Source of the DNA: an uncultured Thermogutta sp.
GTDB taxonomy: Bacteria; Planctomycetota; Planctomycetia; Pirellulales; Thermoguttaceae
Length of the DNA stretch: 64,000 bases
Direction of reading: 5' to 3'
Assembly: GCA_937128505.1 (NCBI GenBank)
Contig: CAKZMM010000187.1
Location: 1 to 64,000 of the forward strand
The notes beneath the pieces were generated by a model. The model ran no database searches and was not told where the DNA came from. It saw only the letters and a list, made by a program, of their open reading frames with translations. Positions 3,389-16,590 of the stretch are shown one piece after another (positions within the stretch are counted from its first letter, which is position 1; each line of letters starts with the position of its first letter). A program made the translations under genes and the position numbers.

Positions 3389-4068
3389 GTGTCTTTAGTC
3401 TTATCACAGGTATTTCGCGGCACATTCGGGCCTTCATGTCACCCAAAAATTGCCGGCGCGATTCCGCTTGGTATCTTCGGGGATCCTCGCCCGGCTTCCG
3501 GCCCTCATCAGGTCAACTCGGCAAATGTTCACAACCCAAGAATTAAGGTTTACGGCCCGCACCGTTTGATGCATCCCACGATTCGCTCAACGTGAGCAAA
3601 CGCAATTTGTTCGAACCTAGCCTATCTTGTTCTCAACGTTTCCAACACCACAAAGAATCCGCCATAAAAAACAACTACTAAGATCAAAAGAACAACCGAA
3701 AGGCGAAAGAATACTGAATAATGATTTAGGCTCGCGGCCGCTTCACCGATTGGTTCCTGTCTTAATTCCTGCGTTTCGCCCGCTCAAAATCCGCCGAAGT
3801 CGTTTTCGACACTAACCCTCCTAAACTCAAGAATTATAGCCTTCTGCTTGCCAAAGAGGACCTGACCGTGACGGAAGAAGTTTGCCCCGGTATTCTTCGC
3901 ATAGTTACGAAGGAGCCCCTACGGCCCGTGGGTTGGCGATTGCCACGTTGTTCTCGGTGTCGGAATTTTCATTGACACCTTGACGCCCGGTGCTGGCAAG
4001 CGAAAGCTCAGTGCTGTTTTTGGGAGCATCTCCCCAGAGGAAAAGGCGGCGCCCGCACACTCTACCAC
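3389..4068. other. Spacer with a small inverted repeat
   Basis: 680 bases between two minus-strand genes. The only structure I see is a 6-base inverted repeat, GGTGTC and GACACC, around 3956-3980, lacking the T-run expected of a terminator. Open frames here are short and unrecognised. Confidence 0.35.
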
Positions 4069-7943: not shown

Positions 7944-9551
7944 ATGTCACTCCACCGTAAGCTAATCCGACTATGGGGGGGATTTGGTTTTGCCCTGGTT
8001 GGGTGCGCCCTTTTGGGAATGTCTGCCCCCTGCGACCAGATCCTATCCAACCTAAGCGTTCTTGCTGCCGAAGAAGTGGAGCCCCCTTCACTGAACTTGT
8101 TTGCCCGCAAACGGATAAAGACGTCGGAGGAAGGGGAGTACCAGGTGGTCTATGAGGTCTTGAATTGGCCGGCGCGAAAAACGGCTGCTATTGTCTGTGA
8201 TATGTGGGATAATCATCACTGCCCTTCAGCCGCCCGCCGCGTCAACGAGATGGCTCCCCGAATGAATAACCTGCTAAAAGCCCTGCGAAAGCAAGGGGTT
8301 TTGATCATTCATTGCCCGAGCGGGACGATGAAATATTACGAAGGCACATCGGGCCGGCTGCTTGCTTTGCAAGCGCCGAAGGTCGAAACAGCTGTCCCGC
8401 TTCAAGGGTGGTGCAAGTTGGACCCGACCTGCGAGGGGCCTTTACCTATCGACGATAGCGACGGCGGCTGCGAAGATCCCGGCAGTAAACCCGCTGCGGT
8501 TTGGACCCGGCAAAACGACCTGATCGAGATCGAGTCCGGCGATGCGATCGGTGACAATGTCGAAGTGATTTACTTGCTGAAGCAGCGGCAGATCGAGAAT
8601 GTGATCATCATGGGTGTACATGTGAACATGTGTGTGCTCGGTCGGCCGTTCGGGATCCGCCAACTCGTTCGCCAGGGTTTCAACGTGGTTTTGGTCCGGG
8701 ACATGACCGACAGTATGTACAACCCGGCTCGGCCGCCGTACGTGAGCCATGTTCGCGGCACAGAGCTCGTCGTGGAACATATCGAGAAGTTTTGGTGTCC
8801 GACCATTACCTCCGGCGATATCCTCGGGGGGCCAGCTTTCCGGTTTGCAGAAGATCGCCGGCCCCATGTCGCCTTTTTGGTGAGCGACGATCATTACCAG
8901 GCGGACAAGCTGTTGCCGCAGTTCGCCCAGTGGCTTACCGAGAAGTACGACTGCTATACTTCGGTCATGCATGGTCTGGGTAAACAGTACATCCATGGAA
9001 TCGACGAACTTGAGGCTGCCGATTGCCTTGTGCTGTATATCCGCCGCTTGGCTTTGCCGGATTTCCAATTGGAAAAGGTGAAGCGATATCTGTCTTCCGG
9101 AAAACCGTTAGTCGCTTTGCGGACTGCAAGCCACGCCTTTGCTTTGCGGGGAAATACTCAGCCACCGGCGGGACACGCCCAGTGGCCGGAATTCGATCAC
9201 GAAGTTTTGGGTGGAAACTACCGAAACCACACCGCGAAACCGGGGACGGAAATCGAGGTTTTGCCCGAAGCCCAGGCACATCCGATTGTCGCAGGCTTGC
9301 CGGTAAAAACCTGGGTAAGTGAAGGCACACTATATCTTGTATCGCCTCTCCGCGAGGATGCGCAGGTGCTCATGCTGGGTCGACAGGGGACAATCAGCGA
9401 ACCAGTGACTTGGGTTCGACAATACCAAGGTGGGCGGATCTTCTACACCTCTTTAGGGCATCCTTCCGATTTTCAGCAGCCGATGTTTCGGCAACTATTG
9501 GTGAATGCCATTTTCTGGTCCATAAATCGTCCGATTCCGGAACCGCGGTAG
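7944..9551 (+). CDS. Isochorismatase-like hydrolase fused to a ThuA-like domain, exported
   Basis: Two catalytic-type domains in one exported protein. Residues 1-43 form a signal peptide with a hydrophobic core (WGGFGFALVGCALLGM). Residues about 75-290 are an isochorismatase-like cysteine hydrolase: Asp86 in IVCDMWDNHH sits at the usual catalytic Asp position, and Cys230 in HVNMCVLGR after the strand VIIMG is the usual nucleophile. Residues about 305-530 resemble the ThuA (trehalose-utilisation, class I amidotransferase-like) fold: VAFLVSDDHY, ADCLVLYIRR, LRTASHAF, and a C-terminal FYTSLGHPSDF. The ATG at 7944 is preceded by AAGGAG with good spacing. The substrate is unknown. Family knowledge suggests hydrolysis of a C-N or ester bond in the first domain and binding of a carbohydrate-like ligand in the second; that is inference. 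Confidence 0.9.
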   Translation: MSLHRKLIRLWGGFGFALVGCALLGMSAPCDQILSNLSVLAAEEVEPPSLNLFARKRIKTSEEGEYQVVYEVLNWPARKTAAIVCDMWDNHHCPSAARRVNEMAPRMNNLLKALRKQGVLIIHCPSGTMKYYEGTSGRLLALQAPKVETAVPLQGWCKLDPTCEGPLPIDDSDGGCEDPGSKPAAVWTRQNDLIEIESGDAIGDNVEVIYLLKQRQIENVIIMGVHVNMCVLGRPFGIRQLVRQGFNVVLVRDMTDSMYNPARPPYVSHVRGTELVVEHIEKFWCPTITSGDILGGPAFRFAEDRRPHVAFLVSDDHYQADKLLPQFAQWLTEKYDCYTSVMHGLGKQYIHGIDELEAADCLVLYIRRLALPDFQLEKVKRYLSSGKPLVALRTASHAFALRGNTQPPAGHAQWPEFDHEVLGGNYRNHTAKPGTEIEVLPEAQAHPIVAGLPVKTWVSEGTLYLVSPLREDAQVLMLGRQGTISEPVTWVRQYQGGRIFYTSLGHPSDFQQPMFRQLLVNAIFWSINRPIPEPR

Positions 9552-12520: not shown

Positions 12521-12863
12521 GGCAAATTCCTCCTTTACAACTGATTTGAGACTTACCCGGCGTAAATAGGCCCTTGGTGCGATAAACCGAAGGGCCTTTG
12601 CCAATCCACGGGCAGTCGCTTGGACTATTCCGAAGCCCAGCATAAACCCGGCCCCCGGCGAAAGCAAGGGCTTACCCCTACTACGGGAGAACGCACGCTA
12701 GAGCATTTGAGAGCGTTTTTCCTTCGGCTGTCCCACAAAAGTCGTGGGGGCGATTCGGTGTTGCCGTCTCGGCCGGCATCACGTGTGCGTTCGGCAATCT
12801 ACTTACCGCCCTCCATGCGAAGCGCTAAGGTGCTACCGGCTTGCGTCGTGTCATCCAGCAGCA

Positions 12864-12950
12864 AGTTGCTCCGTATTACCCAGGAGGAGGTCGCTTACTC
12901 GCGTGGTGTTTGCCAATGCCAATAGTTGCTCTGTATTACCCAGGGGGAAC
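12864..12950. repeat. 27-base direct repeat with 60-base period
   Basis: Two copies of AGTTGCTC(C/T)GTATTACCCAGG plus a short purine tail, starting at 12864 and 12924. Confidence 0.75.
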
Positions 12951-13160
12951 TCTTTATTTGGCGTTGGCTTTTTAAACAGCTTCGAAAGACCGCCCTATCC
13001 GCGGCCTTTAAAGGCTGTGATGGCCTGGTGCCCCGGGGATGCATCACGTACCGGTTTCAAAATCATGTACCGTTTTTGAATTGCGAGGTTTGATAGCGGT
13101 CGAAAATCTAGGTCATACAGGCAAATCGCGTGAGTGGGAAACGATCATGCTCTTTGCGTT

Positions 13161-13189
13161 TTGAAGGTCAATTCGGCTATCGATATAAT
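13161..13189 (+). promoter_or_regulatory. Sigma-70-type promoter upstream of the ParA-like operon
   Basis: TTGAAG at 13161-13166, exactly 17 bases, then TATAAT at 13184-13189. A second TATAAT follows at 13193-13198. The first ATG downstream on this strand that opens a long gene is at 13350, giving an untranslated leader of roughly 150 bases. The -10 box is a perfect match to the bacterial consensus; use by this organism is inferred. Confidence 0.55.
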
Positions 13190-13194
13190 CGATA
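13178..13194. promoter_or_regulatory. Palindromic operator candidate overlapping the -10 box
   Basis: TATCGAT, 3 bases, ATCGATA: a perfect 7-base inverted repeat covering the -10 element of the promoter upstream of the ParA-like gene. A dimeric repressor bound here would block that promoter. ParA proteins of some plasmids autoregulate in this way; here it is inference. Confidence 0.4.
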
Positions 13195-13349
13195 TAATAG
13201 TCTGCGATTAAATGGTTGATTCAACGCACACTCGTACGATCTACCTGAAAGATGGGGGAAGGTAAGGTCGCATTTTAGGGTGGCGAGCATCGCAATTATC
13301 CCCACTGGGAAATTGCACCCTTTGCGAGGCAACCTTACGGAATCGAACC

Positions 13350-14771
13350 ATGGACCCCTTGGACGCGGTCCAAGTCGCGATCGAATTACTTCGGGGAAAT
13401 ACCGAGAACGCTATCTTTTTTGTTACCGGGGCCGCGACCGTCGTGAGTATCTGGCTTTTTGTGGCCCAGGTTTACCGCCGACGTGCCCGCAAAGGGAGCG
13501 AGTATTATAGGGCTCTATACGAGCAGTCTCTTACCTCGCTGGCCCCGCAGACCTTGGAGCTAGACGAGTTACACCGCAAGCAGGGGAAAGCTGAAAAGGA
13601 AAAAAACGCTCTTGAGGAAGCTTCTCAAACCGCGAATCAACATATTCACGAACGAGAGGAAGGACAAAGGGATTTGTTTCAACGTTATCCTTCAGTCTGG
13701 CAGGAGGGAGAATCAAAACTGGCTCAGTTGGCCCACCAGCGGGCGATCTCAAAGATCGAGAGTGATCGAGTGCAAAAAGTACCGGATCAATCGCCGGGCG
13801 AGATTGTCGGCACCTGGACGATCCCGAAAACACAAATGGAAATGTGGGGTCGGTCGGCAAAGCAACCGGCCCCTTTCATCCCCAAAAGCGAACGCACTTG
13901 TCGCATCATTTCCCTGGTTAACCTGAAGGGCGGCGTGGGCAAAACCACTTTGACGGCAAACCTCGGGGTAGCGCTGGGTTGTCGCGGACGTCGGGTTTTG
14001 CTGGTCGATTTGGATTATCAGGGGACATTAAGTGGGTTATGTCTTCCCCAATCCGATCGCATACATGTCACGAATTTTCGCCGAACTGTGGCGGAGCTTT
14101 TCCGCAGTGCGACACCTAACCTCGATGTGCTCAATAAACTGAAGGTATCCGTCGGATTTGCGCCACAGGAGGCTGCGGCACGCGGCTCCTTTTTTTTGCT
14201 GGCCGCGGACGAAAGCTTGGGAGAGGTGGAAGGGGAGGCCTATGCGCTGCTTCAGTGCGGCGAAAGGGACCCCCGTTACTGCTTTCGCCAAGTTTTTCAT
14301 CATTCGGATTTCAGCAATCACTTCGATCATGTCTTGATCGACTGTCCTCCACGTTGGACTGCACCGGCCGTAGCGGCTTTAGCAGCCAGCGACTACGTGC
14401 TGATTCCGGTCATTCCCGATCCGCCTTCGGCTGAAGCGGTTCCTCGTCTCCTCCAGTGGCTGAGCAAATTCAAGGTAAGCGCACAGATTTGCCCCCAGAT
14501 CGAGTTGCTCGGCGTGGTCGCCAATAAAGTGAGTATGTACGGCCGGGATTTGATCATCAGTCAACGGAATGTTCTCGAGGAATTGGAGGCCCAATGTAGG
14601 GATCGCTGGGGAGGACCGGTGTACTTTTTCCGGTCGAAAATTAAATTAAGCAACGAGTTTGGTCGGATTGCACGGCGGCCAGGTTTCGCCGCATTATCCG
14701 GAAAGCTCCAAATGACTTTTCGCGACTTGGCGGCGGAGTTCGAAGCGAAAATCAAGGGTCATAACCCGTGA
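13350..14771 (+). CDS. Membrane-anchored ParA/MinD-like ATPase
   Basis: P-loop ATPase of the ParA/MinD (SIMIBI) type with an unusual N-terminus. Residues 20-42 form one hydrophobic membrane segment (AIFFVTGAATVVSIWLFVAQV) followed by RRRARK. Residues about 55-130 are charged and probably coiled coil (KAEKEKNALEEASQTANQ). The ATPase begins near 185. The deviant Walker A is K193-GGVG-K198-TT with the signature Lys. The A-prime motif is LLVDLDYQG, and Walker B is VLIDCPP around Asp331. ParA proteins are usually about 200-300 residues and soluble, so the anchor and stalk are additions. The stop overlaps the next start by 4 bases (GTGA), indicating translational coupling. No ParB gene or parS-like site array is near, so ordinary chromosome segregation is not supported. 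The start codon has only a weak ribosome binding site. Confidence 0.85.
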   Translation: MDPLDAVQVAIELLRGNTENAIFFVTGAATVVSIWLFVAQVYRRRARKGSEYYRALYEQSLTSLAPQTLELDELHRKQGKAEKEKNALEEASQTANQHIHEREEGQRDLFQRYPSVWQEGESKLAQLAHQRAISKIESDRVQKVPDQSPGEIVGTWTIPKTQMEMWGRSAKQPAPFIPKSERTCRIISLVNLKGGVGKTTLTANLGVALGCRGRRVLLVDLDYQGTLSGLCLPQSDRIHVTNFRRTVAELFRSATPNLDVLNKLKVSVGFAPQEAAARGSFFLLAADESLGEVEGEAYALLQCGERDPRYCFRQVFHHSDFSNHFDHVLIDCPPRWTAPAVAALAASDYVLIPVIPDPPSAEAVPRLLQWLSKFKVSAQICPQIELLGVVANKVSMYGRDLIISQRNVLEELEAQCRDRWGGPVYFFRSKIKLSNEFGRIARRPGFAALSGKLQMTFRDLAAEFEAKIKGHNP

Positions 14772-15247
14772 AAATCGGCGAACTTTGTGCATTCCTAGTG
14801 AAAGTGAGCGACTTGGTCGACTTGGTGGGAAAGAAGTCGGCTGCCGACGGATTGCGGCAATTCGTCGCCGGTTTGGAGCCGTTTCAGGCGTGGGATGTCT
14901 CCAGATTGATGACCTTTCTCCATCAGTGCGACGAATACCAACGAACCGGGCAGGTTTCAGCCGGTCGCAGGGGGACCGGCAAGGCGAAAGTGCGACAGGA
15001 GGTGGTTGATCGCTGGAAAAATCGTTTGGAGGCTTTTTACGAACGAGTGATTCAGCCAGAGGTCACCTACGAGAGTATCGAGGCGGAGTTGGAACGCCTC
15101 AATAAGGAGTGCAACAAGGAGGAAGCGTTAGCCATTGCTCAAGCTTTGAATATTGCCACAAGTTCCAAGACCAAAAAGGGAATTGTTGAGGTATTGCGTC
15201 AGCGTTTTGCAGCGCGCAAGTCAAGCTACGAGCGAACCGATTTCTGA
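14768..15247 (+). CDS. Unrecognised partner of the ParA-like ATPase
   Basis: 159-residue protein of no family I recognise, starting at a GTG that overlaps the stop of the ATPase gene by 4 bases. It is mostly helical and charged. Residues about 60-80 are basic (RRGTGKAKVRQEV), the centre is acidic and may be coiled coil (YESIEAELERLNKECNKEE), and the C-terminal EEALAIAQALNIATSS-KTKKGIVEVLRQRF resembles a SAP or HeH helix-loop-helix nucleic-acid-binding motif. The tight overlap suggests that it works with the ATPase, perhaps as an adaptor that binds DNA or RNA. Domain assignment is by eye and uncertain; that it is a gene is well supported by the overlap and by codon use like its neighbour. Confidence 0.75.
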   Translation: MKIGELCAFLVKVSDLVDLVGKKSAADGLRQFVAGLEPFQAWDVSRLMTFLHQCDEYQRTGQVSAGRRGTGKAKVRQEVVDRWKNRLEAFYERVIQPEVTYESIEAELERLNKECNKEEALAIAQALNIATSSKTKKGIVEVLRQRFAARKSSYERTDF

Positions 15248-15336
15248 ATGAACCTTTTTCGTGCCCAAACCTCTCCTGGGTTCCGATCGTTCGAGGCTTG
15301 CTCGAAGCCGTAAGTTTTCGTAGAAATTTAACCACC

Positions 15337-15353
15337 GGCGATTGATAATCGCC
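15337..15353. other. Perfect short hairpin after the ParA-like operon
   Basis: GGCGATT, 3 bases, AATCGCC: a 7-base perfect stem 90 bases after the partner gene. No T-run follows, so terminator function is doubtful. Confidence 0.35.
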
Positions 15354-15480
15354 TTAGGGTGTAGGGTTGGGTGAAGTAATTGACCCACTAGGGTAGGAAG
15401 GACTCCACGGACTTTCTTCTGGCGTCGATCCGATGTAAAAATTTTCGACAGCGAATCTAACTCGAAGAGGGGAAACGCAC

Positions 15481-16590
15481 ATGCAATACGAAGCTCGCAG
15501 TCGCGGTGATTTGATTTCCGCGTCGCACTCTGGGTGCCTTCAAAGCGGAGCTGCTCAAGGGACGGTTTCGCGGCGCGGCATTCTGAAAAGTTTGTCGGTA
15601 GCAGGGATGGGCATGGGTTTGGGAATCTCTACTGGCACAGTTACTTTGGGATCGGCTGGCGAGGCGACCTTTGAAGCGGGCAGCTCCTTGCCCACGCTTC
15701 CTACTTCCGCTGCTATTTTCGCAGATAGCTCCGGCTCTAACCCCGCGGAGCCTTTCGGGTATTCTCTCAACACCGCGACGATCATGGGTTTTAAGCTGCC
15801 TGTGCCGGAGCAGATTTCAATTGCCGCGAAAGCGGGCTATCAAGGAATTGAGCTTTGGATTCGCGACATCGAACAATTCGTTTCGTCTGGAAAATCGCTT
15901 AAGGAGATCCGCAAGCAGATTGAAGATAGCGGGCTCCAGGTTACGGGTGCGATCGGCTTCTGCGCCTGGGCTGCCGAGGACGACTCGCAGCGGGCAAAAG
16001 CCCTCGAGCAACTTCGTCGCGAGATGGATTGGGTCTCGCAAGTGGGGGGTAAGACAATCGCCGCGCCGCCAGCCGGCATCAATCAAATCCCTAATATCGA
16101 TCTTCGCCGCATCGCCGAGCGGTATCGCACAATCCTCGAGCTCGGCGAGTTGCTCGGCGTTGTCCCGCAACTAGAAATTTGGGGAGCCTCGCTCAATCTA
16201 AGCCGCGTGAGCGAGGCCCTTTTTGTGGCAATTGAATGTGGGCATCCTCGCGCCACCGTCCTTTTGGATGCCTACCACATGTATCGGGGCGGATCGAGCT
16301 TCGAATCGCTTCGTCTGGTCAACGGTGCGGCCATGACCCTCTTTCATCTGAACGATTATCCGGCCGATCCCCCTCGCGAGAAGATCACCGACGCCTATCG
16401 AGTCTTTCCCGGCGACGGTGTGGCTCCGCTTTCCCAATTGCTTCGCCTCCTTCACGAGACCGGTTTTCGCGGCATGCTTTCGCTGGAACTTTTCAATCGC
16501 CAATATTGGCAAGGCGATCCCCTGGAGGTGGCCAAATTGGGTCTCGCCAAGATGAAAACTTCCGTCCGCAACGCGCTGGAAGCAACTTGA
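15481..16590 (+). CDS. Exported TIM-barrel sugar isomerase/epimerase-like protein
   Basis: Xylose isomerase-like TIM-barrel (AP endonuclease family 2 fold) with a Tat-type signal: RRGILKSLSVAGMGMGLG at about residues 31-48. The barrel begins near residue 95 (FGYSLNTATIMG). Likely metal ligands at conserved strand ends are Glu in PQLEIWG, Asp in LLDAYHMY, His in LFHLNDYP and Glu in LSLELFN. FPGDGV before the last strands is typical of the sugar phosphate isomerase/epimerase group. An AGAGGGG ribosome binding site precedes the ATG. The substrate is unknown; an exported location suggests a free sugar or oligosaccharide rather than a sugar phosphate. Confidence 0.9.
   Translation: MQYEARSRGDLISASHSGCLQSGAAQGTVSRRGILKSLSVAGMGMGLGISTGTVTLGSAGEATFEAGSSLPTLPTSAAIFADSSGSNPAEPFGYSLNTATIMGFKLPVPEQISIAAKAGYQGIELWIRDIEQFVSSGKSLKEIRKQIEDSGLQVTGAIGFCAWAAEDDSQRAKALEQLRREMDWVSQVGGKTIAAPPAGINQIPNIDLRRIAERYRTILELGELLGVVPQLEIWGASLNLSRVSEALFVAIECGHPRATVLLDAYHMYRGGSSFESLRLVNGAAMTLFHLNDYPADPPREKITDAYRVFPGDGVAPLSQLLRLLHETGFRGMLSLELFNRQYWQGDPLEVAKLGLAKMKTSVRNALEAT

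Follow-up and report, generated by a model that had tools for sequence, protein, structure and literature searches.

What does a ParA/MinD-type ATPase do when it carries its own membrane helix and is followed by a small gene that is not parB? ATPases of this class organise bacterial cells through reversible binding to the nucleoid or the membrane, and the pair of genes examined here appears to be built differently. The first-pass annotation of this DNA had proposed an uncharacterised membrane-tethered module, and the proposal was followed up by computation. "The window" means the whole 64,000-nucleotide stretch that was analysed.

The gene pair in the window

The features of the locus, in window coordinates, are as follows.

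13161..13189, + strand: sigma-70-like promoter match TTGAAG-17-TATAAT, 10 of 12 consensus bases
13178..13194, + strand: perfect inverted repeat TATCGAT-ATA-ATCGATA, which covers the −10 element; unlikely to be a conserved operator
13350..14771, + strand: gene for a membrane-anchored ParA-type ATPase, 473 aa (open reading frame; Pfam AAA_31, 3.5e-25; AF2 pLDDT 86.0)
13410..13466, + strand: predicted membrane helix AIFFVTGAATVVSIWLFVA, residues 21-39, then RRRARK; C-terminus predicted cytoplasmic (hydropathy)
13467..13772, + strand: helical stalk, residues 40-141 (AF2 model, a single helix spanning residues 18-141)
13896..14759, + strand: Soj/ParA-fold ATPase domain, residues 183-470 (fold comparison with Soj 9a6n_A)
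14768..14771, + strand: GTGA stop/start overlap (open reading frame coordinates; translational coupling inferred)
14768..15247, + strand: partner gene, 159 aa, GTG start, all-helical product (open reading frame; AF2 pLDDT 90.8, pTM 0.52)
14774..14947, + strand: partner N-terminal three-helix domain, residues 3-60 (AF2), the best conserved region of the partner family
14948..14995, + strand: partner basic linker, residues 61-76, low confidence (AF2; charge in relatives)
14996..15241, + strand: partner C-terminal four-helix SAP/HeH-like domain, residues 77-158 (AF2; weak fold and Pfam matches)

The two reading frames share the GTGA at 14768-14771, confirming the overlapping pair described previously, and the overlap suggests that ATPase and partner are translationally coupled. 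No Rfam family was found in 12600-15600. No description of such a pair was recognised in the literature searched, which was mostly open-access and did not extend to bioRxiv, and the window pair is apparently one copy of an unnamed two-gene system.

The promoter and palindrome reported in the first-pass annotation are both present, but neither exceeds chance expectation. Three promoter-like sites were found in 12668-15480, compared with a mean of 1.8 (sd 1.4) in shuffled sequence, which is no excess. The motif TATCGAT-3-ATCGATA has its sole exact copy in the genome here and one further site with one mismatch, while the window contains six perfect inverted repeats of the 7-3-7 form, and 47 when any loop of 0-8 is counted, so that the importance given to the palindrome is unsupported. 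It arises from a 9-bp tandem duplication, falling within two head-to-tail copies of ATCGATATA. No such palindrome was present upstream of nine relatives; the perfect repeats seen in two of these were different ones, with arm lengths of 7 or more. A role as operator was rejected because of this absence and a frequency close to chance.

Both nucleotide-binding motifs of the window ATPase are intact, Walker A (NLKGGVGKTT) near 13926 and DCPP near 14340, and the Walker A residues are invariant columns in the family alignment. In the AF2 model (pTM 0.67) the ParA domain begins at about residue 183. Its closest fold was Soj 9a6n_A, with a Z score of 33.1 and an rmsd of 1.7 over 250 residues; McdA scored 29.9, and MinD, at about 25, was further away than Soj. 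The protein has the deviant Walker A, KGGxGK[ST], and the ParA fold by which ParA/MinD (A/D) ATPases are recognised.

The helix ahead of this domain has a mean hydropathy of 2.19, equalled in 1 of 200 shuffles, and the net charge around it is −1 before and +5 after. The N-terminal membrane helix and stalk of the earlier reading are supported by this hydropathy and by the AF2 helix. Throughout the family, a membrane helix was called where a 19-residue hydrophobic stretch with a mean hydropathy of at least 1.6 lay ahead of the ATPase domain. It was predicted in 29 of the 33 ATPase frames uncut by contig ends, and 25 of these 29 helices were equalled by fewer than 10 of 200 shuffles. Charge was greater after the helix than before it in 28 of the 29, which places the ATPase domain in the cytoplasm. 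Further ATPases from named records had a helix in 11 of 13 cases.

The four frames without a clear membrane helix were L041, L042, L095 and L107. Three planctomycete ATPases of the same family that lack the helix (L041, ending at 9528; L042, 8581-9825, reverse strand; L133, 5272-6537) are followed by longer, apparently related partner genes, and are possibly a soluble branch of the family.

Conservation and spread of the pair

The search for relatives used a profile of the partner only, built from three sequences, so that the ATPase was unable to bias the count of pairs. Among 397 genomes of the class, 34 matched, in 25 of 186 genera. There were 39 distinct partner places, of which 38 were examined; G043 was left out (E 6e-4, internal stop). 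At 33 of the 38 places an ATPase of the same type immediately preceded the partner, on its strand; the count was 31 of 36 when the two places used to build the profile were excluded. Conservation of the partner beside the ATPase in relatives, on which the first-pass annotation had staked its reading in advance, was therefore found. The partner start fell inside the ATPase frame at 32 of the 33 places, with an overlap of 1-68 bp when the start codon nearest to the model start was chosen. G063, from the same family as the window genome, also has the pair. A phylum-wide search with a 31-row profile, in which just nine of the first-look candidates were scored per listed genome, gave the window genome as its one match among 392, a count that is a lower bound.

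The distances between ATPases and between partners, compared over 30 pairs, were correlated (r 0.589; 0 of 5000 permutations, Mantel), a correlation that can partly reflect shared species history.

The partner occurred without the ATPase at five of the 38 places (L080, L082, L085, L090 and L092). The copies at L080 (1769-2272) and L082 (7512-8027, reverse strand) each directly follow an open reading frame that reads like an ATP sulfurylase. One of the 33 ATPases, at L091, is broken: its frame (ending at 3906, reverse strand) keeps the stalk and C-terminal part, lacks the Walker A region, and is followed by an intact partner.

Named genomes were also scanned for the motif DCPPRL[TS]T. This gave 25 loci, in Singulisphaera, Zavarzinella, Gemmataceae and other planctomycetes, in Achromatium, in a myxococcal genome, and in Hyphomicrobium, Rhodomicrobium and other Alphaproteobacteria. 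At all 25, an open reading frame of at least 80 codons started between 85 bases before and 52 bases after the ATPase stop. Compared with the planctomycete partner by hhalign, the downstream protein of Achromatium gave an E of 2e-22, a six-member alphaproteobacterial profile of the Hyphomicrobium/Rhodomicrobium group 2.5e-9, and the myxococcal protein 1.1e-5, whereas the best of 119 neighbour proteins used as controls reached 0.051. By this sequence comparison, the three are kin of the planctomycete partner. Matches were weak for the downstream proteins of L128, L129, L131, L132 and L133 (0.0019-0.0097, against the best control of 0.051), and the proteins beside the soluble ParAs of L127 and L130 gave 0.021 and 0.077, on either side of that control.

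The alphaproteobacterial partner profile, run for the partner alone, matched 28 of 103 genomes in the family to which Hyphomicrobium sp. LHD-15 belongs, in many cases only over its C-terminal half. In three Hyphomicrobiales loci (L127, 3753-8979; L130, 3809-7231; L121, 2266-5541) the pair lies within a recR region. L127 and L130 also have a soluble ParA, in each case accompanied by a small helical gene. A second, divergent ParA-like gene with a partner of 154-157 aa occurs at L127 and L121, and these partners matched that of planctomycetes at 1.2e-7 and 1.9e-7 (hhalign).

Gene neighbourhood and known ParA systems

No conserved third gene accompanies the pair, since no gene was common to more than six of 41 loci. 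Among the neighbour families met most often are dnaX, recR and fmt, and the neighbours look like ordinary chromosomal genes. Two genomes have the same neighbouring reading frames: in the sister species G001 they stand without the pair, neither gene being matched in any part of that genome at the thresholds applied, while in G002 they enclose it. Between the window and G002, identity was 37% for the ATPase core and 28% for the partner, compared with 54-60% for the next, sugar-isomerase-like gene. The module is therefore dispensable and fast-changing, and its patchy occurrence likewise indicates that it is not essential.

Patchiness, rapid change and dispensability would suit an anti-phage defence pair, and a defence-like role or a variable island had been suggested for this locus. 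Neither gained support. PADLOC has no model for the partner, and matched the ATPase only with PDC-M28B (2.8e-7, residues 166-223, the P-loop region); PADLOC core models were unmatched, and the neighbours are ordinary. In a PADLOC run on the 119 neighbours alone, the 25 listed of 66 matched models were mostly kinase models with one or two proteins each. We regard a defence function as very improbable.

The ParA fold would also suit partition genes left behind by a plasmid or phage that had integrated, and so would the solitary occurrence in the order of Achromatium (Achromatium only, 1 of 119 genomes), which suggests transfer. Against this, no partner match was found in 72,556 plasmid records, and the viral matches of the motif scan were ParA genes followed by ParB-like reading frames, a different kind from the pair. 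Moreover, at three alphaproteobacterial loci the pair sits in a chromosomal region containing recR, and def and fmt lie downstream at two of these. A plasmid or phage origin is thus unsupported, and we consider it extremely improbable. A phage lead from phrog_164 (8.8e-37) was also rejected as a generic ParA match, because this phage family hits ParA in 118 of the 119 genomes from the window's taxonomic family and in all 14 control genomes.

The pair is also separate from the chromosomal partition genes. In the window genome, contig C26 carries canonical parA and parB together, and the pair is on C187. ParB was present in all 22 genomes searched, on another contig than the pair or at least 73 kb away; the pair beside ParB, the other finding named beforehand as counting against a distinct module, was not seen in these genomes. 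The window had 0 matches, with up to three mismatches, to a 16-mer parS consensus, from which the planctomycete consensus may differ. None of the 25 most frequent neighbour families, beyond which lie 125 further families, was flagellar. In a tree of the ATPase domain, a fully supported long branch set apart the 14 generic ParAs, which were drawn from a single taxonomic family, that of the window genome; two soluble alphaproteobacterial ParAs fell on the side of the paired ATPases, on a long branch with weak support. Taken with the conservation of the pair and the predicted helix, these results support the earlier idea of an uncharacterised membrane-tethered ParA module that has a co-conserved partner and stands apart from parAB.

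The pair resembles Soj/ParA of ParABS in its ATPase fold, deviant Walker A and small downstream partner gene, but differs in its integral membrane helix and stalk, in a partner that is not ParB, in the separate presence of parAB, and in an ATPase on a branch distinct from the 14 ParAs sampled. Like MinD and FlhG, the window ATPase is predicted to work at the membrane. However, membrane-bound MinD-type ATPases use a reversible C-terminal targeting sequence, according to PMC10241942, whereas the helix here is N-terminal and permanent, and the fold score to MinD is below that to Soj.

Another reading is an ATPase switch without spatial positioning, which would control an envelope or transcription process as FleN/FlhG or BcsQ do. 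FleN, FlhG and BcsQ have the same fold as the window ATPase (Z 22.6-24.9), and a partner resembling nucleic-acid-binding proteins could act as a regulator. Such a switch seems unlikely to us, as no envelope or regulatory gene is conserved nearby and the ATPase fold is nearer to Soj/ParA.

Alternatively, a membrane-fixed ParA module might position or cluster a protein cargo, such as an envelope machine or organelle, with the partner as cargo adaptor in the manner of McdB for carboxysomes. ParA/MinD partners are described as extremely diverse and as usually connecting the ATPase to its cargo (PMC10241942), and with no conserved third gene the cargo could be encoded anywhere. McdA/McdB is similar in that a ParA-type ATPase adjoins a small non-ParB partner. 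It differs in that the window partner lacks a terminal tryptophan region of the kind named in the title of PMC11321042, and in that bacterial microcompartments (BMC) are not present in all pair-bearing genomes. No cargo was found, and BMC as universal cargo was rejected: PF00936 BMC shell proteins were absent from 7 of the 21 pair-bearing genomes searched, and, while the window genome has BMC genes, G001 has BMC and no pair. Positioning of a protein cargo is a real possibility and on balance a doubtful one.

The partner protein and a possible membrane-DNA tether

Compared with Pfam, NCBIfam and PADLOC, the window partner gave no match, for Pfam none above a family's cut-off; specifically, neither Pfam nor NCBIfam linked it to ParB, and Foldseek with its model returned nothing at E ≤ 0.001. 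In fold its C-terminal domain came closest to residues 103-157 of T4 endonuclease VII, with a Z of 6.4 and an rmsd of 1.8 over 54 residues, while DEK gave a Z of 5.2; both scores fall under the level that the tool itself sets as chance for helical proteins and bundles. Pfam SAP matched 3 of 31 partner relatives (best E 0.015) and Rho_N matched one of the 31 (8.7e-5). The SAP, Rho_N, T4 endonuclease VII C-terminal and DEK domains are nucleic-acid-binding folds of HeH type, and the partner domain weakly resembles them in its helical arrangement, from which DNA binding is a prediction only. Because of the sub-chance fold scores, we treat the likeness as a lead, and the SAP-like C-terminus of the first-pass annotation has weak support.

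Net charge of the linker was positive in 30 of 31 relatives, that of the C-terminal domain, with a low mean of +1.6, was above zero in 25 of the 31, and that of the N-terminal domain averaged −1.3 and was positive in 2 of 31. According to PMC10241942, other ParA/MinD partners work through a positively charged, disordered N-terminus. The window partner has no such N-terminus; its own is predicted to be folded (block pLDDT 96-97), and its basic, low-confidence part is the internal linker. Since the N-terminus is, by prediction, folded and slightly negative, any contact with the ATPase must differ from that made by other ParA/MinD partners.

Partner size varies among the loci. Longer partners of 259-322 aa are found at L112 (6515-7441), L118 (6482-7378), L085 (7575-8543), L090 (7511-8479) and L092 (7547-8326, reverse strand), each matching the partner profile two or three times, which looks like a repetition of the C-terminal domain. 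The myxococcal partner at L116 (6468-6752) is just 94 aa and is seemingly the C-terminal domain alone.

The reading that we tentatively favour, while holding it at less than even confidence, is a ParA-type switch that is anchored in the inner membrane and connected to DNA by its partner, giving an ATP-gated tether or positioner between membrane and nucleoid. It builds on what the computations gave directly: the coupled and co-conserved genes, the predicted anchor, the Soj/ParA fold with intact motifs, and the independence of parB. In outline, a single N-out/C-in helix and the helical stalk would hold the ParA domain in the cytoplasm. ATP would dimerise neighbouring ATPase domains, and the partner would bind the dimer and trigger hydrolysis, both by analogy with other ParA/MinD ATPases. 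The three-helix N-terminal domain of the partner would probably dock on the ATPase, while the basic linker and HeH/SAP-like domain would probably contact DNA and so complete the tether. ParABS would thereby be reversed, with DNA as the load that moves and the membrane as the matrix that stays in place.

A bolder version of this tether is an inverted ParA motor, in which the membrane-fixed ATPases form the track and the DNA-bound partners carry chromosomes, in budding cells into the bud. Many planctomycetes, as well as Hyphomicrobium and Rhodomicrobium, divide by budding; Achromatium and the myxococcal carrier are not known to bud. For Hyphomonas neptunium, what drives chromosomes into the bud is reported as unidentified, and ParA seems to be absent from the stalk (PMC6650430). 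We put the motor forward as a speculation that is very probably wrong.

The rule of reversible binding would be broken by a ParA/MinD family that has a membrane anchor built in and comes with a folded partner of its own. The pair is defined and can be cloned, and thus offers a way to study how DNA or cargo is held at the membrane or moved along it. Its carriers include planctomycetes and Hyphomicrobiales, groups whose chromosome handling is poorly understood, and if the inverted motor were true, it could be the missing machinery that moves chromosomes into buds.
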